A DNA stretch of 64,000 nucleotides from an uncultured Coriobacteriaceae bacterium (lineage in GTDB: Bacteria > Actinomycetota > Coriobacteriia > Coriobacteriales > Atopobiaceae): NCBI GenBank assembly GCA_902793465.1, contig CADBDT010000015.1:1-64000 (forward strand), given 5' to 3'. Numbering within the stretch: the first letter of the stretch is position 1; the number at the start of each line of letters is the position of its first letter. The notes below the pieces were generated by a model. The model had not been told where the DNA came from, ran no database searches, and worked only from the letters and a program-made list of their open reading frames with translations. Positions 25 through 15,926 of this stretch are shown here, piece by piece. A program made the translations under genes and the position numbers.

Positions 25-2223
25 TCACTCTGCGGAATCGCCGGAATCGAGCATCTGGCGCTTTACGAGCTCGTGGAACAGGCCGCCCTTTGCCACCAGT
101 TCGTCGTAGGAACCTTCTTCGGCTATACGTCCGCCGTCGACCACTAGGATACGGTCGCAGTTGCGGACGGTCGAAAGGCGATGCGCGATCACCAGACGCG
201 TGCAGGCGAGTGCATCGAGCGATTCGCTCACGTGCTTCTGCGTCTTGTTGTCGAGCGCGCTGGTCGCCTCGTCGAACAGGAGGATGCGCCTGTTTCCGCA
301 TACGGCGCGCGCGATCAGCAACCGTTGGCGCTGCCCGCCCGACACGCCGCCCGAGCCTTCGGAGACGAGCGTCTGCATTCCCTGGGGCATCTTGCGGATG
401 TCGTCGGCGATGCCTGCCACCTCCGCGGCCGTCCACGCATCGTCGATGGTCGCGCCCGGCGTTGAGAGGGTTATGTTGCTCGCCATGTCGCCCATGAAGA
501 GCTTGCCGTCCTGGAGCACCGTGCCGATATGCTGGCGCAGGCTTCTGAGGTCTACCCGCTGTACGTCGTGGGGACCGTAGTATATGCTACCGCTGTCGGG
601 CGTCTCGAAGCCGAGCAGCAGGCGCAGGATGGTCGACTTTCCGCATCCGCTTTTGCCGACGAGCGCCACATACTCGCCGGGACGTACGGTAAACGACAGG
701 TCGCGCAGGATGGTGGGCCCGCCCTCGCCATAGCTGAATGTTACGTCCGATACCCTGATGCTGCCGTCGAGCGACTCAACGCTTGGCTTGCCCTCGTCGG
801 CCTCGGGTGCCGTCTCCAGAATCGGCAACACAAGGTCGAGCATGGGCTTTACCTCTGCGGTTTGGCCCGCGATCGAGGCGAATTCCATGAGCGCAAAGCT
901 GACCTGGCCGTACGCCGCGCTGAAGGCCATGAAGTCGGCGACGCTCACGTGCGTCTTAGCCGCATAGTAGTAGATGAACGCATTGCCGAGCAGCGCCACG
1001 AAAGCCACGAGTGGCTGCAGTGCGCGTAGGGCCCAGGGACGGTTGTAGGAGAGCTCCGCATATTCGGAGTAGGTCTTTGCCCATCGTGCGAAAGCCCTTT
1101 TCTCGGCGCCGGCCAGCTTTATCTTCGGCACGCCGTTCAGAAGGGCGCCTACGAGGCCGGATAGCCTGCTGTTCGCACGCTTGGCCTTCTTCTCGTAGCT
1201 CACGGTGGCGAGCGTGATGGAAACCGTGAGCACCACCTGCGCGGCGACGACGGCAAACGCCGGCAACGCCAGGGCAGGAGCGAAGGTAGTTATCTGCACG
1301 ATGTAGATGAGCGCGAACAACGACGTGAGTCCCGAGCCAAAGACGGCCGTGACCAACTTTTGGACCAGCGAGTACACATTGCCGATTCGGTTTGCCAGGT
1401 TGCCCGACGAGAACCGCTTGAAGAACGTCGCGGGCAGCGATAGCACGCGGGAGAAGATTGCCGCCTCGGTTACCACCTCCGCCTTCGTGGTCATGCTCGC
1501 CGTGACCAGGTTGCGGCAGATGGTCGTGAGCAAGCCGCATACCGTAGCCCCCAGCAGCAGCGCGGCTACGGGACCGATCAGCCCAAACTGACCCGAGGGC
1601 GCCACCAGCTGGAAGGCGATCTTGTTTGCCCAAGCTGGCGCCAGTCCGACGAGCGTCACGATCAGGGCCGCACCGATTACGGTCGCATAGTCGTGACGGT
1701 CGAAGAGGTCGAAGATGAAGAACACCAGATCGCGTATGCCAAGCGGCTTGGCCGGCAGGGGCTTGTAGAACAGGAGCGCCTCTTCGCAGATATGCTTCGC
1801 AACGGAATCCGTTACCTTTGACTTGCGTCCTGTCGAGGGATTCACGAAATAGTAGCCAGAGAGACCCCAAGGCAGCAGGGCAACGGCCTCTCCCGTGTCG
1901 AGGTGGGCGAGTATCGCTCCGTACGTTCTGCAATGCCAGCGCTTTTCCAGGCGTATCTTGCGACGCATGGTCGACGAGGGTCGGCAGAGCCAGTCGAGTC
2001 GCTCGTCGGGGTCATCCACGCCATCTGGTACGGCGCCGGGTTCTGCCTGCAAGTACTTTAGGCAGGTCTTTGCCGCCTTGTCGAGCGGGAGCTCGTCGTC
2101 GGCGAACGAGTCGCGCTGCTCCTTGCTGGACACGCTACGGGCGAGCTGCGCGTAAGCCTGCTCTTCCATGGCGTCGTTCAGCCTCGCCCTGGCTTCGATC
2201 TGTGTCTCGCATTTTTTAGTCAT
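25..2223 (-). CDS. NHLP-type bacteriocin export ABC transporter, permease/ATPase subunit without peptidase
   Basis: Half-size exporter of about 732 aa. It has an N-terminal region of about 165 residues without a C39 peptidase, a membrane domain at about 170-420, and an ABC ATPase. Visible motifs are Walker A GKSGCGKST (about 523-531), signature VSGGQ (about 627-631), Walker B ILLFDEATSALD and the switch His in IAHRLST. This layout matches the second ABC subunit of NHLP (nitrile-hydratase-leader peptide) export systems, which pairs with a peptidase-bearing subunit. The ATG at 2223 overlaps the stop of the upstream gene by 8 bp (ATGACTAA), so the two are translationally coupled; the longer frame to 2301 lies inside that gene. 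It is the last gene of the RiPP cluster and probably exports the acylated peptide as a heterodimer with its neighbour. Confidence 0.9.
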   Translation of the reverse strand: MTKKCETQIEARARLNDAMEEQAYAQLARSVSSKEQRDSFADDELPLDKAAKTCLKYLQAEPGAVPDGVDDPDERLDWLCRPSSTMRRKIRLEKRWHCRTYGAILAHLDTGEAVALLPWGLSGYYFVNPSTGRKSKVTDSVAKHICEEALLFYKPLPAKPLGIRDLVFFIFDLFDRHDYATVIGAALIVTLVGLAPAWANKIAFQLVAPSGQFGLIGPVAALLLGATVCGLLTTICRNLVTASMTTKAEVVTEAAIFSRVLSLPATFFKRFSSGNLANRIGNVYSLVQKLVTAVFGSGLTSLFALIYIVQITTFAPALALPAFAVVAAQVVLTVSITLATVSYEKKAKRANSRLSGLVGALLNGVPKIKLAGAEKRAFARWAKTYSEYAELSYNRPWALRALQPLVAFVALLGNAFIYYYAAKTHVSVADFMAFSAAYGQVSFALMEFASIAGQTAEVKPMLDLVLPILETAPEADEGKPSVESLDGSIRVSDVTFSYGEGGPTILRDLSFTVRPGEYVALVGKSGCGKSTILRLLLGFETPDSGSIYYGPHDVQRVDLRSLRQHIGTVLQDGKLFMGDMASNITLSTPGATIDDAWTAAEVAGIADDIRKMPQGMQTLVSEGSGGVSGGQRQRLLIARAVCGNRRILLFDEATSALDNKTQKHVSESLDALACTRLVIAHRLSTVRNCDRILVVDGGRIAEEGSYDELVAKGGLFHELVKRQMLDSGDSAE

Positions 2224-4372
2224 TGCGCACCAGCTCCGCATAGGCGCCGTTTCGGGACATGAGTTCGACGTGGGTTCCGCGTTCGACCACTTTGCCGTCA
2301 TCGAGGACGATGATCTCGTCGCAGTCGCGAATGGTGGAGAGACGGTGCGCCACCACGATGCACGTGATGCCGCGGCGACGAATGTTTCGGATGACCTCGG
2401 CTTCAGTCTGGGCGTCGAGCGCGCTCGTCGCCTCGTCGAGGATGATGATGGAGGGGTTGGCCGTCAGCGCACGCGCGATTTCCATGCGTTGTAGCTGGCC
2501 ACCCGAGAAGTTGCGTCCGCGTGGTGCGATCATGGACTGGTACCCGTCCTTGCGTACGGCGATTTCCTGGTGGATTCCCGCATCACGGCAGGCGAGGACC
2601 ACCTCGGAGTCCTCGATGGATGAGTCCCACAACGTCACGTTGTCGAGCACCGTGTCACTGAAGGTGACGATGTCTTGGTCGACGACGGAAAGCGACCCGC
2701 GCAGAAGGGGATGCGGCACTTGGTCCAGCGGGATTCCGTCGAACTCAACCGAACCTGACCACGGCACGTAGAGACCCGACACGAGCTTGGCGATGGTAGA
2801 CTTTCCGCTTCCTGATCCTCCGACGAGGGCAACCCATTGGCCGGGCTCAAGATGCAAGCTGAAGTTCTCGATGAGTGGCGGATCGAGTGGCGAGTAGCCG
2901 AACGTGAGGTCCTTGAGGTCAACGCGTCCGCTCAGTTTCGTTCGGTCGAGGCCTGCCGCCACGGGGCCCTCCTCGAAGTTTTCCTCGACGTCGGTCTTAT
3001 AGTGCATGACGTCTTCGATCCGCTCCATCTTGGTCTGCATCTCCTGAACCGTCTGACCGAGTCCGATCATTTGGTTCATGGGCGTCATGAACGAGGACAG
3101 GAATCCCGTGAACGCAAGCAGGGATCCAGGTGAGAACTTGCCCTCCACGATGAGCCAGATTCCCAGCACCAGCACGATGATGTTGGCGAGCTTCGTGATG
3201 GCTTGGGGTATCGTGCCCAGGTACTCGTTGACCAGGGTCGTGTCGGCCGCGATGTCGTAGTTGGCCGCTTGGTAACCCGACCACCGATCGAAGAAGGTGG
3301 CCTCGGCGCCTGCCGCCTTTATGGTCTCGATCATCTCCATGCCGTTGACCGTCGTGGAATGCAGCCTTCCCCCGGCGTTTGCGCTGGCACGTGTGTAGTT
3401 GACGCGCTTCTTCGACACATAGGCGGCTGCGAGGGCGCTGAGCAGTATGGACGCTACGCCCACGATGGTCAGAGGAATGCTGTAGTCAAGCATGATGCCG
3501 AGGTAGAGCAGCAGGAGGACGGTGTTTATCAGGACCGGCGCCAGCTGCCCGACGAGTGTGGCTGCAACCTTCTCGTTGTCGGATTGGCGCATCTGCAGGT
3601 CGCCGACCATCCGCTGTGCATAGAACCCGACGGGCAGTCGTAGCAGATGGTTCATGAAGCGCGCCGACGACACGACGGCCGACTTGCCTTGGATGCTCAC
3701 CAGGTAGTGGGCGTTAAGCACCGAGACGACTCCCGACACGAGCGCGAGCACGAGCATGAGCAGCGCCAGGTTTTCTGACCAATCCGGGTTCTCGCCGGTC
3801 AGGATGCGGTCCATGAACAACTGGCCGAGTGACGTGGTCGCAATTGTCACCATCGACATTATGGCGGCGGTCATCATGACGAACGCGATGGAGGACTTGA
3901 ACCCCGAGAGGCGCTCGAACGCGAACCTCAGGGTGTTCGGCTTCTCTCCGCCCGGCTCGAAGGAGTCGGTCTTCTCGAACAGGAGGACGGTCCCGTCGTA
4001 GGCCGCCTCGAATTCCGTCAGCGCGACCTTGACCTGCCCGTTGGCGGGGTCGTTGAGGTACACCTTGTTTCCCTTCACGCCGCGTACCACGACGAAGCTG
4101 CCCCTCTTCCACAGCGCTATGCAGGGCAGGTGCTCCTCCTTCTCGAGGTCGGCTGCGCTCATCTTGGCGGAATCGGCGGTCAGTCCGTGGATGCCCGCTG
4201 CCCTGAAGAGGTGTTCGACCCTCACGCCGTTCCGCGATACGCCACAATCCGTCCGCATCTGTTCGAGCGGAACCCAGCGGCCGTAATACGCCAAAATCAT
4301 GGACAGGCATGCGGCGCCGCACTCCAGCGCCTCCATCTGCATGACCTGCGGAACTCTTGCGACCCTAGCCAT
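2216..4372 (-). CDS. NHLP-type bacteriocin export ABC transporter with N-terminal C39 peptidase-like domain
   Basis: 718 aa. Order: C39 peptidase-like domain (about 1-130), six-helix membrane domain (about 160-440), ABC ATPase (Walker A GGSGSGKST at about 518-526, signature FSGGQ, Walker B IIILDEATSALD). C39 domains normally cut the leader after a Gly-Gly motif during export. The oxyanion Gln12 and nucleophile Cys18 (QMEALECGAACL) and Asp108 (NDPANG) are present, but the residue expected to be the catalytic His reads Ser92 (RGSFVVV; codon 4097-4099). It may therefore be unable to cleave, or it uses another base. A good RBS (GGAGG, 8 nt) precedes the ATG. It lies 39 bp downstream of the HlyD-like gene and overlaps the next exporter gene. 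The family call is firm; peptidase activity is uncertain. Confidence 0.92.
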   Translation of the reverse strand: MARVARVPQVMQMEALECGAACLSMILAYYGRWVPLEQMRTDCGVSRNGVRVEHLFRAAGIHGLTADSAKMSAADLEKEEHLPCIALWKRGSFVVVRGVKGNKVYLNDPANGQVKVALTEFEAAYDGTVLLFEKTDSFEPGGEKPNTLRFAFERLSGFKSSIAFVMMTAAIMSMVTIATTSLGQLFMDRILTGENPDWSENLALLMLVLALVSGVVSVLNAHYLVSIQGKSAVVSSARFMNHLLRLPVGFYAQRMVGDLQMRQSDNEKVAATLVGQLAPVLINTVLLLLYLGIMLDYSIPLTIVGVASILLSALAAAYVSKKRVNYTRASANAGGRLHSTTVNGMEMIETIKAAGAEATFFDRWSGYQAANYDIAADTTLVNEYLGTIPQAITKLANIIVLVLGIWLIVEGKFSPGSLLAFTGFLSSFMTPMNQMIGLGQTVQEMQTKMERIEDVMHYKTDVEENFEEGPVAAGLDRTKLSGRVDLKDLTFGYSPLDPPLIENFSLHLEPGQWVALVGGSGSGKSTIAKLVSGLYVPWSGSVEFDGIPLDQVPHPLLRGSLSVVDQDIVTFSDTVLDNVTLWDSSIEDSEVVLACRDAGIHQEIAVRKDGYQSMIAPRGRNFSGGQLQRMEIARALTANPSIIILDEATSALDAQTEAEVIRNIRRRGITCIVVAHRLSTIRDCDEIIVLDDGKVVERGTHVELMSRNGAYAELVRND

Positions 4373-4411: not shown

Positions 4412-4867
4412 CTATTTCCTGAGCAGTAGGCTTATCGGTGCGATTCTCTCCACCGTTATCTCCATGGAGAGCGGCACGTCCTGGGGCAGTTTGGAAACAT
4501 CGCCTTCAAAGGTTATCTGGTAGGCCCAGTCCCCCTGCATCAGCGCGCCGACCAGATAGTCACCGGTTGCGATTTTGCTCGCCTCGGAGCGCGAGATCGG
4601 AAGGGTGGAGATCTTGCTGACTTTGAGCTTCGTGCCGTCGACCTCGGCCTCGTCGCCTACGTGCATCTTTTCGATGTCCCCCTCCGAGAGGAAGCAAATA
4701 GCCTGGCCGTTGATAACGGCGGTCTTCGTCGGTACCCTTGTCGCGATGGTTCCGAAAATGCCCCAGGCCAGAAGCCCCGCGAGCAATGCGGCGAACGCAA
4801 CGAGTGCCACCCATACGCTCGGTGGGGTGATGCGCACGCTCTTCTCGAGTTCGTCAGCGCTATGCAT
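4412..4867 (-). CDS. short HlyD/membrane-fusion-like accessory protein of the RiPP exporter
   Basis: About 151 aa, starting at the ATG at 4867, which has a strong GGAGGAGG RBS about 10 nt upstream; a longer frame to 4951 lacks one. Residues about 15-40 form one transmembrane helix after a short cytoplasmic N-terminus (VRITPPSVW, then a hydrophobic run ending WGIFGTIATRV). This start matches NHLP-system secretion proteins of the HlyD type. The rest (about 110 aa) is a small beta-rich extracytoplasmic domain, and the long coiled-coil hairpin of full HlyD proteins is missing. It precedes the two exporter genes and presumably forms the outer-face adaptor of that ABC complex. The role is inferred from context and the N-terminal match. 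Confidence 0.65.
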   Translation of the reverse strand: MHSADELEKSVRITPPSVWVALVAFAALLAGLLAWGIFGTIATRVPTKTAVINGQAICFLSEGDIEKMHVGDEAEVDGTKLKVSKISTLPISRSEASKIATGDYLVGALMQGDWAYQITFEGDVSKLPQDVPLSMEITVERIAPISLLLRK

Positions 4868-4978
4868 GTCGCCCAATACCTCCTCCGATGTTCCTGGGGG
4901 CTCAAGCCTCGACCAGGAGATGACGCAACTAAAACTTATGGAATGCCTCATCAGCGATTATAGCGATGGAAGACCCAC

Positions 4979-5301: not shown

Positions 5302-5883
5302 TTATGGGCGCCGTGATTTGCGCGGTGTGGATGAGCGTTCGGTCTTCGATCGAAGAACGGCGCAACAGGGCGAAGGATGAAAACGTGAGGACGGGGCCTG
5401 CCTCTGCACCGGCCTCCTGGAGAGGGCGCTCGCGTAGTACTTGCCGTCGGGCTCTCGCCTCACGGTGACGCTGTAGACATATCCGACCTCGCGACTCACC
5501 CTCGCCTTGACCAGGCCGTCCACGTAGGGCAGTACGACGTGCCTGGGGTCCGCCACGAAGGCTCTCCCGGACGGTTTGCCGGTGTAGGACCCCCGGTAGC
5601 GGTCCGACCTCTCCGTGCGGGGTACGGGAGGTTCGTCCAGCGGCCGCTCCTCCAGCGCGCGCGGGTCCTCGGGGAACGGGTCGGTAATGCGTCCGCGCAC
5701 GTACGCCTGCTGCTCGACGCACGTCGCCCACGACATTATGCTGCTCGCGCGGGAGCGGTAGCGCCTCGGGGGCTGCGCGAGCAGGCGCATGGCGTGGCGG
5801 CAGAGCCTCGACCTGTCCAGCTCGACGCCGAGGCCAGCGAGCGTTCCCACGAGGTGCGCCATGGCGGAGGTGACGTCGCCCAT
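5302..5883 (-). pseudogene. degenerate TnpB-like (IS200/IS605 accessory) remnant
   Basis: An open frame of up to 193 aa with no convincing RBS. The stretch at about residues 95-160 (RGSYTG, then VVLPYVDGLVKARV, then VTVRREPDGKYYASAL) resembles the beta-barrel part of IS605-family TnpB/OrfB proteins, where LPKLGxVKxR and SVxREPDGRYYxS are typical. The RuvC domain and zinc finger that should follow are absent, and the flanks look like unrelated reading-through sequence. It is therefore a broken fragment, not a working nuclease. It sits between the ACP gene and the exporter genes of the RiPP cluster, which suggests past transposition. I am only moderately sure of the family. Confidence 0.45.
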
Positions 5884-6161: not shown

Positions 6162-6443
6162 TTATGAGGAAGCTTCCGGCTCCGCTTGCGAACCCGAGGT
6201 GCGACTCTCGACCAAGTCTATTACGTCGCCAACGGTGGCGAGCTGCAAGTACTCAATCCGTCCCAGCTTAATGTGAAAGGTCTCCTCCAGCATCACGGCG
6301 AGAAACAGCATTTGCATGGACGAGAAGCCCAAGTCCTTGAGCAATTCCTTTTCCTCGCTAATGTCCGATACGCTGTCGGCAAAGCGGTTGTCCATTTTCA
6401 CCGCGATCTCTTTGAGCTTCTCCAGAATCTCCGCTCGGCTCAT
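6162..6443 (-). CDS. acyl carrier protein of the RiPP cluster
   Basis: 93 aa, acidic and helical, typical ACP length. The phosphopantetheine site is LGFSSMQ, with Ser42 in the position of the Ser of the usual DSL motif; the preceding Asp is replaced by Ser. The ATG overlaps the stop of the upstream acyl-AMP ligase by 4 bp (ATGA), so ligase and ACP are coupled and very likely partners: the ligase would load an acyl group onto this carrier. With a GNAT enzyme upstream, the simplest model is that the acyl-ACP serves as donor for acylation of the Nif11-type precursor peptide. The ACP identity is clear from sequence; the acyl chain is unknown. Confidence 0.85.
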   Translation of the reverse strand: MSRAEILEKLKEIAVKMDNRFADSVSDISEEKELLKDLGFSSMQMLFLAVMLEETFHIKLGRIEYLQLATVGDVIDLVESRTSGSQAEPEASS

Positions 6444-7957
6444 AGCTTGTGCCTCACGATCTTCATGCTGGGAGTGCGCTCGAAGTCACGGTCGCGGACG
6501 GTGATGCGGCTTACCTGCTCGGAAGGATCCTGCTGACGGTTGGTGTCCCAGAGCCTTTCCAGCGCCGCCTGTGCCGGATCGGCACCGAGCTGCTCCAACT
6601 CCGTCTCGCGCAGCACGACCTCAAGCGCCAAAACGTGCCTGCCGTCTTCCTCCACGGCCTCGAACACCTCGCTGTCCTGCACGAAGGACAGCGCGTTGAA
6701 GTGAGCCTCCAGCTGCACGGGATAGATGCTCACGCCATTATCGAGCTTGATGATCTCCTTGGTGCGCCCGGTCATATACAGGAAGCCGTCCTCGTCCAGC
6801 TGCACGAGGTCGCCGGTGCGGAACCATCCGTCTTCCGTAAGCCCTTCCTCGTCGCCCCCGACGTAGCAGGTGAGCAGGTTGCGGCCCTTGAGCCACAGCT
6901 CGCCGTCCACGATCTTCAGCTCCAGCTCGGGATACAGCAGGCCTATGGAGTCGGGCTTGCTCAGCGGCTCACCGTTGCCCGACACCAGGTTGGCGGCCTC
7001 CGTGAGGCCATACCCGGGCAGAATCGTAACCCCAAGAAGGTGATACTCCTCAATCAGATAGGACGGCATGGGAGCTGCGCCGCTGATAATCGTTTTGAGC
7101 GACGTCCCAAAGATGTTGCGTCCGAGCGTCTTGTACAGCTTGAGCGCCAGCTCAACGAGGGCGGGAACCACCACGAGGATGGTGGGATTAAACGCCAGCA
7201 TGTCCTGGACCATGTTCTTTGGGGACTCGGAGATGAACATGGTGCTTCCGGTGTATATCGACGTAAGCAGGTTGCGAATGAGCCCAAAGGTGTGAGAGAG
7301 CGGCAGTAGCAGCAGGTAACGCTGTTCAAACGGCTCCTTCGCGCAATAACAGCCGTTCATTATGCCGCGCACCATCGCCGTATGGGATAGCAACGCACCC
7401 TTGCGCCTGCCAGTGGTGCCACCGGTCAGCATTATTACGCACGGGTCGTCGGGCTGCGGCAAAAACATGGGAACATCCGCCTCGGCACGGCGATCCGTAC
7501 TGAGCACGGCAAGGCCAGAAATTCGCTCACAAAGAGGCTCGCACATCTCCTGCAGCTCCGGCTGCGCCAGGAGCTTCGTGGCTTCCATCCTGCGACAGCA
7601 GTCCTCGATTTCCTGGTCGCTGTATTGTGGCGGAAGAACCACCGCCACACCGCCCAGCGTCACGATTGCAAAGAACGCACATGCGAAGTCGATGGAGTTG
7701 GCGCACACGAGCGCAATGCGCTCTCCCGACTTGCAGCCTGCCTTTGCCAAAGCGCTTCGCCGTGCCGCAATCTCGCGGTCAAGCTCGCCATAGGTTAACG
7801 AGCTTCCCGCATAGGTGAGCGCCACGCGGCCCTCGTACTCCGTCGCACAGCGCTTCCACATTTGGCAAAGATCGCCGTCGTCGACGATTCGGGCAAAAGT
7901 CTGAGCGTCCGTATACTTGCGAAAACGATCCGCGTCACCCAAACAATGGTCCAGCAT
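6440..7957 (-). CDS. AMP-dependent acyl ligase (acyl-ACP synthetase-like)
   Basis: About 505 aa, ANL superfamily. Visible motifs are the P-loop MLTGGTTGRRKGALLS, the adenine motif PGYGLTEAAN, WFRTGDLVQLDEDGFLYMTGR (ATP ribose and hinge region) and the C-terminal lysine region RTPSMKIVRHKL. The enzyme activates a carboxylic acid as acyl-AMP and passes it to a thiol, here most likely the coupled ACP at 6162. I chose the ATG at 7957 (AGGGG just upstream); ATG 7999 with GGAAG is an alternative, and the frame further up is inside the GNAT gene. The gene overlaps the GNAT gene by 23 bp. The substrate is not readable from sequence; a fatty acid is inferred from the cluster. Confidence 0.85.
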   Translation of the reverse strand: MLDHCLGDADRFRKYTDAQTFARIVDDGDLCQMWKRCATEYEGRVALTYAGSSLTYGELDREIAARRSALAKAGCKSGERIALVCANSIDFACAFFAIVTLGGVAVVLPPQYSDQEIEDCCRRMEATKLLAQPELQEMCEPLCERISGLAVLSTDRRAEADVPMFLPQPDDPCVIMLTGGTTGRRKGALLSHTAMVRGIMNGCYCAKEPFEQRYLLLLPLSHTFGLIRNLLTSIYTGSTMFISESPKNMVQDMLAFNPTILVVVPALVELALKLYKTLGRNIFGTSLKTIISGAAPMPSYLIEEYHLLGVTILPGYGLTEAANLVSGNGEPLSKPDSIGLLYPELELKIVDGELWLKGRNLLTCYVGGDEEGLTEDGWFRTGDLVQLDEDGFLYMTGRTKEIIKLDNGVSIYPVQLEAHFNALSFVQDSEVFEAVEEDGRHVLALEVVLRETELEQLGADPAQAALERLWDTNRQQDPSEQVSRITVRDRDFERTPSMKIVRHKL

Positions 7958-8843
7958 CCCCACCCCTTTCTCTCCTGTAGCACCTTGTAACTCGTTCATC
8001 AAAGTGCACTTCCTTTTCCAGGGTCTTTCTGATTCTGTTTGACTCCGTGTTGCTCGGATAGATGGCAAAGGCCCAACGGTGGTATCCGCGCTCAAAGAAG
8101 CGATCCACCGAATACACGAACGGAAGCAGGACCGCACCAAACCCACGGCCATCCGCCGAACTTGCCATCTGCTCAAAGACTACGCTGTTGTGATCCTGCT
8201 GGGTCAGCAGCGAGTATGCAAGCAGCTTCCCGTCCTTTACGGCGGCGCAGCTCAAGTCCATAGACAGCTTTTTTGTCGCGCCCCGAAAGAAACCCGACGG
8301 ATCCAAGGGGTTTTGGAACGAGGAAGTGTGCGACTCGCGGACCTGCCGCAGAATGTCCTCGTCGGCATCCGCGAAGGAAACCGCCTCGCAGCCGGTTCTT
8401 TGCAGCAGGGAGCAGCACGCATCGAAGCGCTGCGTATCTTTGACTCTTTGCCACGCCTGCTTCTGTGAGCTATCGAAGTTAAAGGTGTGTATGCTCTCGG
8501 TGGAGGCAAAGCCCAAACGTTCGCATACGGCATCTACCGCCGCAAAAAAGGGGTGCCGCTCCGGGACCGAGACGAGAACGTCGCGCTCCGCCGTCCGAAC
8601 AATATGCGACACAAGGGAAGAGAAGATGCCGCTACGGCGATACTGGGGCTTTGTATACGCGTACAGAACGCATTCCCGCTGGCCGTCTATTTCCGTGCAA
8701 ATAAAGCCCCGATACGTGTTCCCCGCTCTTTCGCAGTACATTCTGCCAAGTTCCGACGCCTTCCGGATGCACGAGTCGGAAAAGGCGGTACGGGCGTCGG
8801 AGAAGGCAATCAGGTACTGTGTGTCGGTCATCTCCGATATCAT
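7935..8843 (-). CDS. tandem GNAT-family acyltransferase, candidate peptide acylase
   Basis: About 302 aa. The N-terminal half has a recognisable GNAT acyl-CoA-binding segment (KPQYRRSGIFSSLV, about 85-98), and the C-terminal half has the feel of a second GNAT fold (GRGFGAVLLPFVYSV and a trailing beta region), so I read it as a double-GNAT protein. The start at ATG 8843 has GGAG 6 nt upstream; the frame extends to 8891 but that part lies in a terminator-like hairpin. In lipidated RiPPs known as selidamides a GNAT maturase attaches a fatty acyl group to Lys or Orn of an NHLP/Nif11-leader peptide. Position directly after the precursor and before the acyl ligase/ACP supports that role here, by inference. 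Confidence 0.7.
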   Translation of the reverse strand: MISEMTDTQYLIAFSDARTAFSDSCIRKASELGRMYCERAGNTYRGFICTEIDGQRECVLYAYTKPQYRRSGIFSSLVSHIVRTAERDVLVSVPERHPFFAAVDAVCERLGFASTESIHTFNFDSSQKQAWQRVKDTQRFDACCSLLQRTGCEAVSFADADEDILRQVRESHTSSFQNPLDPSGFFRGATKKLSMDLSCAAVKDGKLLAYSLLTQQDHNSVVFEQMASSADGRGFGAVLLPFVYSVDRFFERGYHRWAFAIYPSNTESNRIRKTLEKEVHFDERVTRCYRRERGGDAGPLFG

Positions 8844-8875
8844 ATGTGCTCCACATCGACGGATGGCTGACATTA

Positions 8876-8915
8876 GAAAAACAGGCGGCAACGCACATAC
8901 TACTGCATTGCCGCC
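8876..8915 (-). terminator. hairpin with T-run between precursor and GNAT gene (attenuator)
   Basis: Read on the minus strand, a stem GGCGGCAATGCA / TGCGTTGCCGCC with an 8-nt loop is followed by TGTTTTT. This is a rho-independent terminator placed after the precursor and before the downstream genes. Partial readthrough would give much precursor mRNA and little maturation enzyme, an arrangement common in peptide clusters. Confidence 0.7.
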
Positions 8916-8940
8916 ATGACACAGTTTCTACGTAACTGAA

Positions 8941-9006
8941 TTACCTGTTGACGTTGATGGTATCAATCTTAACATTGATGGACTTGTCGTTCTTTCCGCA
9001 ATCTTC
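8941..9006 (-). other. in-frame, coding-like extension after the precursor stop codon
   Basis: Directly after the TAA at 9007-9009 the same frame reads EDCGKNDKSINVKIDTINVN plus Arg, then TAA at 8941-8943. The alternating hydrophobic/polar pattern and Lys content look like core-peptide sequence, not random DNA. Possible readings are an ancestral longer core now cut off by one stop, stop-codon readthrough, or chance. The sequence alone cannot decide. Confidence 0.4.
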
Positions 9007-9273
9007 TTAACTCTTCTTAAATTCTCGTACTACCACGTGTTCGTTCTTGCCGCCGCCAGCGACCTGGTCGAGCTCATCCAAGCCAATCTCGCCCTCTTCC
9101 TCGAGCTTCGACTTAACGAACTCTTGGACCTCCTCGGCGGTCGCCTCGCAGCCGTGGGCCGCGGCAAAGGCCAAAATAGCCTCCTCGCCCTGCTGCTCCG
9201 CCGCCAGGTACTCCTGCGTCAGCTCCTCGCTCGCGATTACCTCATCGTAGAGCTCCGCTATGGTCTTGCTCAT
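9007..9273 (-). CDS. Nif11/NHLP-type RiPP precursor peptide
   Basis: 88 aa. The ATG at 9273 has AGGAG 9 nt upstream. Residues 1-72 form an acidic helical leader of the Nif11-like type (IAELYDEVIASEELTQEYLA ... EVQEFVKSKLEEEGEIGLDE, then LDQVAGGG). The GGG at 73-75 is the expected processing site and leaves a 13-residue core, KNEHVVVREFKKS, with four Lys as possible acylation sites. It is the first gene of the minus-strand cluster of GNAT, acyl ligase, ACP and exporters. Oddity: the frame stays open for 21 more codons after the TAA (8941-9006), with coding-like composition, so the core may be truncated by a nonsense change. The leader family call is strong; the product is unknown. Confidence 0.85.
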   Translation of the reverse strand: MSKTIAELYDEVIASEELTQEYLAAEQQGEEAILAFAAAHGCEATAEEVQEFVKSKLEEEGEIGLDELDQVAGGGKNEHVVVREFKKS

Positions 9274-9461
9274 GGATCCACTCTCCTTGCTTTGGACAAA
9301 CAACAAACCAGATATTAGCATCAAATACGGGTAAGTCACAAGTACGTCATATGCACGTGCCACTCTTGCTCGGCGAGCGTTATTCGGGTTGAATTGCAGG
9401 CTCATCCGTACGCCTTCTTTTTTGCAAGATACGTTGTTGGGAATCCTAAAGGCTCATGGAT

Positions 9462-9757
9462 TTAAACGCCAAGACAGTTTAGCCGGCATTCCCAATCACG
9501 TCTACCTCTACCCATAGGTCCTACGTCATCCTTCCCTCTCACAGCGTGCCCTCCCGCAGCCAGGTCCAGCTCGTCCATCGAGAGCTCCCCGTCCTCTTCG
9601 AACTTCGCCTTGAGGAAGGAGACGATCTCCTCGATGGTAGCCTCGCAGTCGTGGGCCGCGACGAAGGCCGCGACCGCATCCTCGCTCTCCTGCGCCGCCG
9701 CCAGGCACTCCTGCTGCAGCTCCTCGCTCGCGATTACCTCATCGTAGAGCTCCGCAA
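9462..9757 (-). pseudogene. second Nif11-type precursor, N-terminus lost at a rearrangement
   Basis: The frame from 9757 down to the TAA at 9462 encodes a leader very like that of the first precursor: ELYDEVIASEELQQECLAAA, then SFLKAKFEEDGELSMDELD and LAAGG, followed by a different 28-residue core HAVRGKDDVGPMGRGRR and a tail with two Cys. The DNA of the two leaders is nearly identical over GAGCTCTACGATGAGGTAAT and beyond. The start codon and first residues (MSKTI in the intact copy) are missing: upstream the sequence changes at about 9757 into an ABC ATPase fragment on the other strand, and an in-frame TGA follows. A rare ATT start is conceivable but has no clear RBS. Most likely it is a disrupted paralogous precursor with its own core. 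Confidence 0.75.
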
Positions 9758-10213
9758 TTCTTCTCGCTCACGCTCAAGCCGGGCGAGCGGGTGGCGCTGG
9801 TCGGTGCGTCCGGCTGCGGCAAGTCCACGATACCCAAGCTGGTCTCCGGCTTGTACCAACCATGGAGCGGCGAGGTCCTCTTTGATGGGAAGCCCCGCAG
9901 CGCATACCCGCGCGACGTGATCACTGGATCGCTCTCCGTGGTGGACCAGGACATCACGCTCTTTGAGGACAGCATCGCAGAGAACATCGTCATCACGGCA
10001 CCGCAGCTGACCCAAGAGGATGCCTGGGAGGCGGCCGAGGCGGCAGGGCTCGCGGAGGACATTCGCGCCATGCCCATGGGAATGCATACCGTAATATCGG
10101 AGGGCCAAGGCGGCGTGTCCGGCGGCTCCATCCGCGACGACAACGTGATCGAGACCGCTGACAAGTACGGCATCGCCATGTGCTTCACCGGCATGAGGCT
10201 CTTCCACCACTAA
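9758..10213 (+). pseudogene. chimeric fragment: NHLP-type ABC ATPase joined to the C-terminus of PurH
   Basis: The open frame reads as an ABC nucleotide-binding domain (FSLTLKPGERVALVGASGCG, KST, then GSLSVVDQDITLFEDSIAEN and ISEGQGGVSGG), close in style to the exporter ATPases of this cluster. At about 10130, where the signature SGGQ should finish, it switches to SIRDDNVIETADKYGIAMCF and TGMRLFHH-stop. That ending is the C-terminus of PurH (AICAR transformylase/IMP cyclohydrolase), which typically ends with GGSIRD and FTGMRHFRH. The switch falls in CCGGCGGC, which both parents could encode, so microhomology is likely. The left edge abuts the broken precursor on the opposite strand. Neither half is functional; it marks a deletion/inversion, an element inserted at purH, or an assembly chimera. 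Confidence 0.8.
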
Positions 10214-10232: not shown

Positions 10233-10277
10233 CAACAAGGCGCCTGACCGGGGCTTCCCGGCCAGGCGCTTTTTGTT
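10233..10277 (+). terminator. rho-independent terminator after the purH 3' end
   Basis: The stem GCGCCTGACCGGG / CCCGGCCAGGCGC with a short GCTT loop is followed by TTTTT. It sits 20-60 bp after the stop of the PurH-like end and probably is the original purH terminator. Confidence 0.85.
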
Positions 10278-10373: not shown

Positions 10374-13276
<2,903 letters not shown>

Positions 13277-13477: not shown

Positions 13478-15751
13478 CTAATAAAGGTAGATAACGTGCA
13501 GGTAGGCAATCTCGTTGCTCTGCAGCGTCCGCTCGAACGCGAGTGTTCCGTCGTTCACCACGTAGCGCTCCAGGACGAGTTGCGGCTGGGCGTACGCCTT
13601 GAGGTGCTCGACCTCGCTGCGGCTTGGCTCGTCCATGCACCACAGGCGCATGCGCAGCGCCTCGTTGCCCACGCTGCCGCCGGCATCGTTGACAAAGCGG
13701 GTCTTTACCAGATACGTGCCTGGTCGCATGTTGCGCAATTCGAAACGCAGCGTGCGCTCGGATGGCTCGTCGAAGTAGCTGTTCATTTGCTGGTAGTCGA
13801 GCTGTTTCTCGGGCGTGGTGAGATACGCGGCGTTCAGGCGCTCGCAGTTGTGGCACACGATTTGGTAGTTGTCCGCATCGTTTGCGCTCGCCATGCAACG
13901 CTCGTCGCAAAAGACCAGACCGCTGCCGATATGAGCCAAAAAATCGAATGCATAGTACGACGGCTTGGGAATGCCGTCCCGGTTCAAGATGCCCGAACGC
14001 CCCGAGAGAAACGCCGAGAGTGCACCACCGTCGACCGAAAGGTCCAGCGCATCGTTGTAGCACAACGACTGCACCAGTCCCAGCGACGAGAGCACCGTTT
14101 GCATGATGCTGGCCGCCTCATAGCACGAGTCGTTCATGATGTTGGACGTCTCGAGGGAGTCGCGCCAACCGCCCACCACCAGCAGGTTTGGATCAAAGCC
14201 CTCCTGCTCGAGTGCCTCGCGCGCAAGCATGACCTGATTGCGCAGATAATACCGGTCGGCCGTGCGCACGAGCAGGTCCTTGCCATCCTCGTGCGCAGGT
14301 GCCGCGGGACGGCAGGCAATGCTCACCGCACCAAGACGAACATGCCGCCTTCGCGCCTCGCGCAGGAAGGCGCGAAGGTTGTCGCATGTTTGGTCGCAGC
14401 GCAGACCTGGACCCATCAGTCCCTCAGCGCAACCGTATTCGTCGAGCGTTTTGCCAATACGCGAGAAGAGCTCGAAATACATGCCCCAGACCACGTCGGA
14501 TCCGCCGCCTCGTACGATAAGCTCGAAGCGCCATGCGCGAATCGTCTGCACGCCATAGCGGTTGGCCAGCCGACGCAGGGCGTCGCCAAACGCGCTCTCG
14601 TAGGCCTGCGGGTCATTCTCGGGAACGTACTCCACCAACACATGCGGCACGAATCCGTTGCCGACCAAAAAGTCAAAGCAGTCGATCAGGTCGTAGAGTC
14701 CCTGCGCGCCCTCACATTGTGCGAAGTCGCAGCCAACGCGCCAGCGCTCGAACGACAGGTGCTCCTTGAGCCAGAGGGCCTGCTCGCGCACACGCGAGTC
14801 GGCCAGCGATTCCACCGTGCCCAAGCCAATGAGCTCGCGCCACGATGCGTGCAGCACCTCCTTGCGCGCGTGGGCATCGATCATGATTTCCCAGCTGTCG
14901 TGCTTGGGTGCAAGTGGACGGCTGGCGAGCAGCTCGGCCTCCTTGCGCGCGTGGACGTCTGGTGCAGAGGGTACCGTGCGCTCATGCGTTGTACGGTACT
15001 GCTTGGGGGTCATGCAATAGGCTGCCTTGAGTGCCTGGTTGAACGAGGCCACATTGGGAAACCCGCACTCCAGCGCTATGCGGGTAACCGTGTAGTCGGT
15101 CGAACGGAGTCGCTCGGTGGCCACCTCGAGCCTCACGTCGGTAAGGTACGCATGGAAGGTCTTGCCCACCTCTGCCTTAAAGACCTTTGCAAAATGCTCG
15201 GTCGAGAGGCCAAACCGTCGCGCCATCTGCGTAAGGGAAAGCGGCTCGTCAAAGTGGGCGTCGACGTATGCCCTAAACGCGCCCGCCCGGTCCTCCTCGT
15301 CTGTGGTTACGCCGCCAAAACCGTCCAACAGGCAGTTGATTAGGGCAAGCTCGGCAACATCGTAATGGAAGTCGGCAAAATCCCCTGTCTCGGCGCTTAC
15401 CCTGAGAAGCGCCTCGAAGCGCCTGCGCAGCTCGGTATAGCTGGCGAGGTGGCGCTGGGACGGCTCGCACGAGAGAGACACGTTACGGTCGTGCAGGCGC
15501 TTGCGCAACATGCGCACGTCTATATGCAGAAGGGCGGCAACGCCGGACGAATCCACCTCCAACGAGCAGGCGTGGTTCTCGGGTACCAAAGCGAGGGACC
15601 CACGTCCGCGCTCGAGCTCGTAGATGGGACCGTTCTGGATACGCAGGCGGGTGAGACCCCGCAGGGCGTACACCACCAACACGTTCCATCGGCTGGCTGC
15701 GATGCGCTTGTTGCCGTGCGCGTAGCGGCATGTTGTGAGTCGTGCGTCCAT
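13478..15751 (-). CDS. AraC-family regulator fused to a GH39-like domain
   Basis: About 757 aa. Order: cupin-like sensor (about 1-150), two-helix-turn-helix AraC DNA-binding domain (about 160-260; LSLTQMARRFGLSTEHFAKV and VTRIALECGFPNVASFNQAL), then a glycoside hydrolase 39-like region (about 290-690) and a beta-sandwich tail. Such AraC-GH39 fusions control sugar operons in Gram-positives. The typical WNEP acid/base motif of active GH39 enzymes is not visible; the region reads AWRFELIVRGG, so the domain may only bind ligand. ATG 15751 has GGGAGG 5 nt upstream. It precedes the EIIBC-GH1 genes on the same strand and is their likely activator. A palindrome at 15927-15980 lies 176 bp upstream. 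Confidence 0.88.
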   Translation of the reverse strand: MDARLTTCRYAHGNKRIAASRWNVLVVYALRGLTRLRIQNGPIYELERGRGSLALVPENHACSLEVDSSGVAALLHIDVRMLRKRLHDRNVSLSCEPSQRHLASYTELRRRFEALLRVSAETGDFADFHYDVAELALINCLLDGFGGVTTDEEDRAGAFRAYVDAHFDEPLSLTQMARRFGLSTEHFAKVFKAEVGKTFHAYLTDVRLEVATERLRSTDYTVTRIALECGFPNVASFNQALKAAYCMTPKQYRTTHERTVPSAPDVHARKEAELLASRPLAPKHDSWEIMIDAHARKEVLHASWRELIGLGTVESLADSRVREQALWLKEHLSFERWRVGCDFAQCEGAQGLYDLIDCFDFLVGNGFVPHVLVEYVPENDPQAYESAFGDALRRLANRYGVQTIRAWRFELIVRGGGSDVVWGMYFELFSRIGKTLDEYGCAEGLMGPGLRCDQTCDNLRAFLREARRRHVRLGAVSIACRPAAPAHEDGKDLLVRTADRYYLRNQVMLAREALEQEGFDPNLLVVGGWRDSLETSNIMNDSCYEAASIMQTVLSSLGLVQSLCYNDALDLSVDGGALSAFLSGRSGILNRDGIPKPSYYAFDFLAHIGSGLVFCDERCMASANDADNYQIVCHNCERLNAAYLTTPEKQLDYQQMNSYFDEPSERTLRFELRNMRPGTYLVKTRFVNDAGGSVGNEALRMRLWCMDEPSRSEVEHLKAYAQPQLVLERYVVNDGTLAFERTLQSNEIAYLHVIYLY

Positions 15752-15926
15752 GTGACCTCCCACCCACATTGTATGCCTGCTGCGCTAGGGTCTTGTCAAC
15801 AATCCCTGGCATGTGCGCCTGAGGGTCTTTGGCTCCACCAAAGATAACCGTGCGCTCCCAAAAGGGGTGCACGTTTTGTTTAGCGGTGTCCGCTTGCCGT
15901 CGTCCGTTAGGAAAAAAGTTTTCATG

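Follow-up and report, generated by a model that had tools for sequence, protein, structure and literature searches.

A probable recombination scar of exporter and purH pieces beside a Nif11/NHLP-type RiPP cluster

Export in NHLP/Nif11 RiPP systems is assigned to a pair of proteins, NHLM_micro_ABC1 (TIGR03796) and NHLM_micro_ABC2 (TIGR03797) (PMC2887384). The two ATPase fragments described here both derive from such a pair and keep the ABC1-then-ABC2 order seen in a related genome, G002; however, they amount to a hybrid of about 120 residues devoid of peptidase, membrane domain and complete signature motif. The piece that follows them corresponds to the short AICAR formyltransferase (NF005492, PRK07106) and its protein equals the C-terminus of the gene in G151, a member of the sister genus g9, but about 360 residues are missing, and an intact copy is found on another contig, C16. 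Scars of homology-facilitated or illegitimate recombination, as outlined for example in PMC3240628, show short shared sequences where unrelated DNA joins, a likeness that extends to this locus; in contrast to that outline, three joints are present here within 370 bp, with donor DNA and route that we infer from sequence. No paper on short-patch double illegitimate recombination turned up in the literature collection searched. We consider it likely that the locus is a dead scar without function, left by illegitimate and homeologous recombination beside a Nif11/NHLP-type RiPP cluster, most likely an ordinary and recent one with three joints.

The window and its RiPP-type cluster

The window, the whole stretch of DNA that was analysed, covers positions 1-64,000 of contig C15 in a draft genome of 3.1 Mb in 68 contigs (98.7% complete, stated contamination 0.26%). 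Its left 10 kb hold a minus-strand cluster of RiPP type, with the contig start falling inside an NHLM ABC gene. Features outside the scar are:

25-2301, minus: NHLM ABC2
2216-4372, minus: NHLM ABC1
4412-4951, minus: short HlyD-like protein
6162-6443, minus: ACP
6440-8176 (as ORF), minus: AMP ligase
7935-8891, minus: GNAT-like protein
10374-11825: bglA
13478-15769: araC-type regulator
51098: L31-Coriobacteria leader, pointing to Coriobacteria

Between the HlyD-like and ACP genes lies a weak match to TnpB of IS200/IS605 (5302-5883, minus, E 9e-6), probably a remnant. From 6162 to 9405 on the minus strand, the GNAT-like protein, ACP and AMP ligase are grouped beside Nif11-like precursors and NHLM exporters, a stretch that we take to be possibly a candidate lipid-modified RiPP cluster, selidamide-like and with its own acyl supply. 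NHLM-like exporter ATPases are numerous in genus g1, with up to 14 matches per genome, an apparent richness of the genus.

The glmM gene on C15 is 83% identical to that of G006, of the host genus, versus 77-78% for the best g9 matches and 75% for G002. C15 was therefore rejected as a foreign contig and treated as part of the host genome.

Pieces and joints of the probable scar

At the right edge of the cluster, next to the intact precursor 1, fragments of four genes follow one another directly, precursor 2 on the minus strand and ABC1, ABC2 and purH on the plus strand:

9007..9276, minus: precursor 1, intact, Nif11-like leader (MSKTIAELYDEV...), RBS-like AGGAGAG before ATG
9462..9758, minus: precursor 2 (assigned by homology to precursor 1), pseudogene, start codon and RBS lost
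9756..9771: joint 1, precursor (minus) to ABC1 (plus), AATT filler, then CTTCTCGCTCAC
9760..9988 (ABC1-specific to 9979), plus: ATPase-domain fragment of NHLM ABC1 (TIGR03796), Walker A region
9980..9988, plus: joint 2, ABC1 to ABC2, GAGAACATC, at a homologous position and in frame
9980..10126 (ABC2-specific from 9989), plus: ATPase-domain fragment of NHLM ABC2 (TIGR03797), to SGG of the signature motif
10119..10126, plus: joint 3, ABC2 to purH, microhomology CCGGCGGC, 8 bp
10121..10213, plus: last 31 codons (including stop) of a PRK07106-type AICAR formyltransferase (short purH)
about 10236..10275, plus: hairpin then T-run, probable intrinsic terminator, MFE -43.1 kcal/mol, z -4.7

Precursor 1 matches TIGR03798 weakly and below the cut-off (19.2 bits, cut-off 32.3; E 0.0011), its assignment as Nif11-like being supported by a GG motif and the neighbouring exporter. 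Precursor 2 shares 78% of its DNA with precursor 1 over 209 nt (9550-9758 vs 9053-9261), and 67% of the amino acids of the leader. This homology stops at about 9755-9758, where the frame reads ...ARRIAELYDEV with an in-frame stop upstream, and the start codon and RBS are thus gone. ABC1 homology sets in at 9760 for the majority of genomes compared, and precursor 2 is indeed truncated where the plus-strand ATPase begins, as an earlier sequence-only reading had it. The bases AATT at joint 1 match neither flank cleanly. Had precursor 2 begun with MSEK, 11 bp (CTTCTCGCTCA) would be common to both sides, and microhomology joining would then be plausible at this joint.

The same reading had counted two breakpoints, both of which are real features of the sequence, and had overlooked a third joint inside the ATPase (9980-9988). 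The residues encoded by 9764-9979 share 93% identity with ABC1 of G002 and 38% with its ABC2, while those encoded by 9989-10126 share 24% and 87%, respectively. Identities cross from ABC1 to ABC2 in 10 out of 10 complete exporter pairs tested, a result that is independent of the ABC1/ABC2 labels used in this comparison, which were given by a crude motif and are unreliable for some pairs. A further single gene, on C11 of the window's own genome, behaves as ABC2 in the comparison. At the DNA level, the ABC1 fragment is 89% identical to G002 (C32:28032-28260) and 82% to C43 of its own genome (7989-8216), the corresponding values for the ABC2 fragment being 82% (G002, C32:30436-30582) and 81% (C43, 10393-10538). 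Other exporter ATPases, for which a search of the genome had been proposed, are hence present on C43 and C11.

In G002, the ABC1 gene belongs to TIGR03796, and the ABC2 gene has its best match in TIGR03797, at 705.1 bits vs a cut-off of 709.4. The hybrid fragment scores 123.1 bits with TIGR03796 (cut-off 853.3) and 125.8 bits with TIGR03797 (cut-off 709.4); both of its pieces are homologous to the respective subunit, and it falls short of the full-length permease plus ATPase of either family. The ABC1 piece departs from G002 at 26 nt, which alter 19 codons synonymously and 5 non-synonymously. Given that these are mostly synonymous, the piece probably belonged to a working gene that selection maintained until recently, which also makes young joints probable.

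ABC2 homology reaches 10126 and purH homology sets in at 10119-10121, and joint 3 is therefore placed inside CCGGCGGC, which is common to ABC2 (TCCGGCGGCCAG) and purH (CCCGGCGGCTCC). The switch from ATPase to PurH had been put at about 10130, a few bases off for a joint that is truly sharp. Its 8 bp are a microhomology of the kind by which scars of illegitimate recombination are recognised; when breakpoints are placed at random in a relative's ABC2 and purH, only a fraction of 2.4e-4 of the pairs hit a shared run of at least 8 bp.

None of the pieces is complete at its ends. In the fused ABC1-ABC2-PurH frame a plausible start is missing, the earliest GTG being inside the ABC domain, the signature motif ends after SGG, and no way for the ORF to function is apparent. 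An annotation of this ORF as a fused 'ABC transporter/PurH' would thus likely be an error, corrected here, and the ORF no gene. The frame is open throughout, which counts against a decaying scar, though at a young age this need not be surprising.

The purH tail and an intact purH elsewhere

The tail covers positions 360-390 of the 390 in NF005492, short of a full-length match, in agreement with its earlier recognition as a C-terminal PurH piece. It is identical in protein and in 94 of 95 nt (99%) to PurH of G151, and 96-99% identical to ten g9 genomes chosen as best matches. Identity falls to 87-94% in other g9 members, and conservation of the stretch extends across genera, making g9 only a moderately favoured donor. 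Among relatives generally, the last ~95 bp of purH are highly conserved across genera, followed by a 3' flank that is different in almost every species; some draft contigs stop at this conserved 3' end or close to it. An intact purH terminator had been claimed downstream. The strong hairpin and T-run are present, albeit not listed by a simple terminator scan, but they cannot be assigned to purH as its own because the 3' flanks differ among relatives.

A search for an intact purH, also proposed beforehand, recovered a gene of 392 aa at C16:76290-77468(-), with an uninterrupted 3' end and among genes that flank purH in many relatives. The intact copy in conserved synteny argues that purH has not been lost, and the view of purine synthesis in this organism is unchanged. 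Between this copy and the C15 tail, 15 of 93 nt differ (84% identity), with four non-synonymous codons, and the tail was consequently rejected as a copy of the working gene. No NHLM exporter pair was found beside purH in the purH neighbourhoods of relatives examined, and thus no unbroken ancestral arrangement, a point against the scar proposed below.

Proposed origin and rival explanations

How might such a scar have arisen? A second exporter pair, ABC1-ABC2 on the plus strand, would formerly have adjoined the precursors. Homeologous recombination between its tandem ATPase domains, which lie ~2.2 kb apart in relatives, may then have produced the in-frame ABC1/ABC2 fusion of joint 2, and illegitimate joins at short shared sequences would subsequently have trimmed the exporter fusion. 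At joint 3, ABC2 would have been joined to the 3' end of a purH-like gene other than the working copy of the genome, and at joint 1, ABC1 would have been placed across the start of precursor 2, killing it. The ABC1 piece being 89% identical to G002, vs 75% for glmM, together with the best matches of the purH tail in g9, suggests a lateral origin of the pieces.

The joints may instead be artefacts, from template switching in library preparation or amplification or from mis-assembly across related strains, which we regard as unlikely. Joint 3 was found in no other carrier among the related genomes or viral contigs searched, and a degenerate form of its pattern had five matches in genome contigs, all in distant taxa (Sphaerotilus, Leptothrix, Acidobacteria, Cyanobacteria MAG). 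A joint unique among the genomes searched would be expected of a strain-specific scar, and equally of an artefact. A chimera would also be congruent with pieces resembling different lineages, with C15 beginning within an NHLM ABC gene and with relatives' contigs sometimes ending near the purH 3' end; moreover, library or amplification chimeras can exploit overlaps as short as 8-12 bp. Shared runs of 8-12 bp are however far under usual assembler k-mers, and no donor of any piece exists in the assembly at >84% DNA identity, rendering ordinary mis-assembly unlikely. In addition, three false joints would be needed inside 370 bp, and the stated contamination is low.

A single event, stitching short foreign gene pieces together at microhomologies, for instance by template switching on incoming single strands, appears improbable to us. 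If it were true, joints clustered in this way would be a sign that these Coriobacteria take up mixed DNA from their community.

When elements integrate at the 3' end of a gene, a short 3' segment is commonly duplicated, and a mobile element integrating at the purH 3' end could have left a displaced copy here; the sharp start of the purH copy and its continuation to the stop would fit. We nevertheless judge this very improbable, as nothing interrupts the native purH end, the tail matches the native copy at only 84%, and C15 and C16 yielded neither a tyrosine recombinase (PF00589) nor a resolvase-type serine recombinase (PF00239). The uninterrupted end and the absence of these two recombinase families from both contigs likewise oppose the island insertion suggested by the sequence-only reading. 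An attachment site would be identified by a recombinase gene together with a flank that matches at the intact gene; this pairing was not found at purH, nor was an element ending in the purH 3' end seen in the relatives' neighbourhoods read. Plasmid and phage searches returned NHLP-type and other ATPases as well as purH, and the virome contigs with purH sequence (five phage-collection records) carry whole genes, not tails resembling attachment sites.

Least credible is a simple microhomology-mediated deletion on the native chromosome, also put forward earlier, by which an exporter would have been lost together with most of the resident purH: the 8 bp at joint 3 and the in-line orientation of ABC1, ABC2 and purH agree with the joining mechanism, yet the intact purH in its conserved C16 neighbourhood speaks against the loss, the tail is unlike that copy and resembles another genus, and one deletion leaves joint 2 unexplained.

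The preferred reading, a dead scar, suggests that RiPP exporter paralogues may recombine with one another and that cluster edges can gather scraps of other genes. To the right of the scar no clean empty site was found, with the bglA-PTS-araC synteny being only partial, in G003, where bglA adjoins glmM. In that genome (C286, L139; 15699-17984, minus), counterparts of the window's araC-type regulator and bglA form one in-frame 761-aa ORF with no PTS gene between, apparently another in-frame deletion fusion in the genus.
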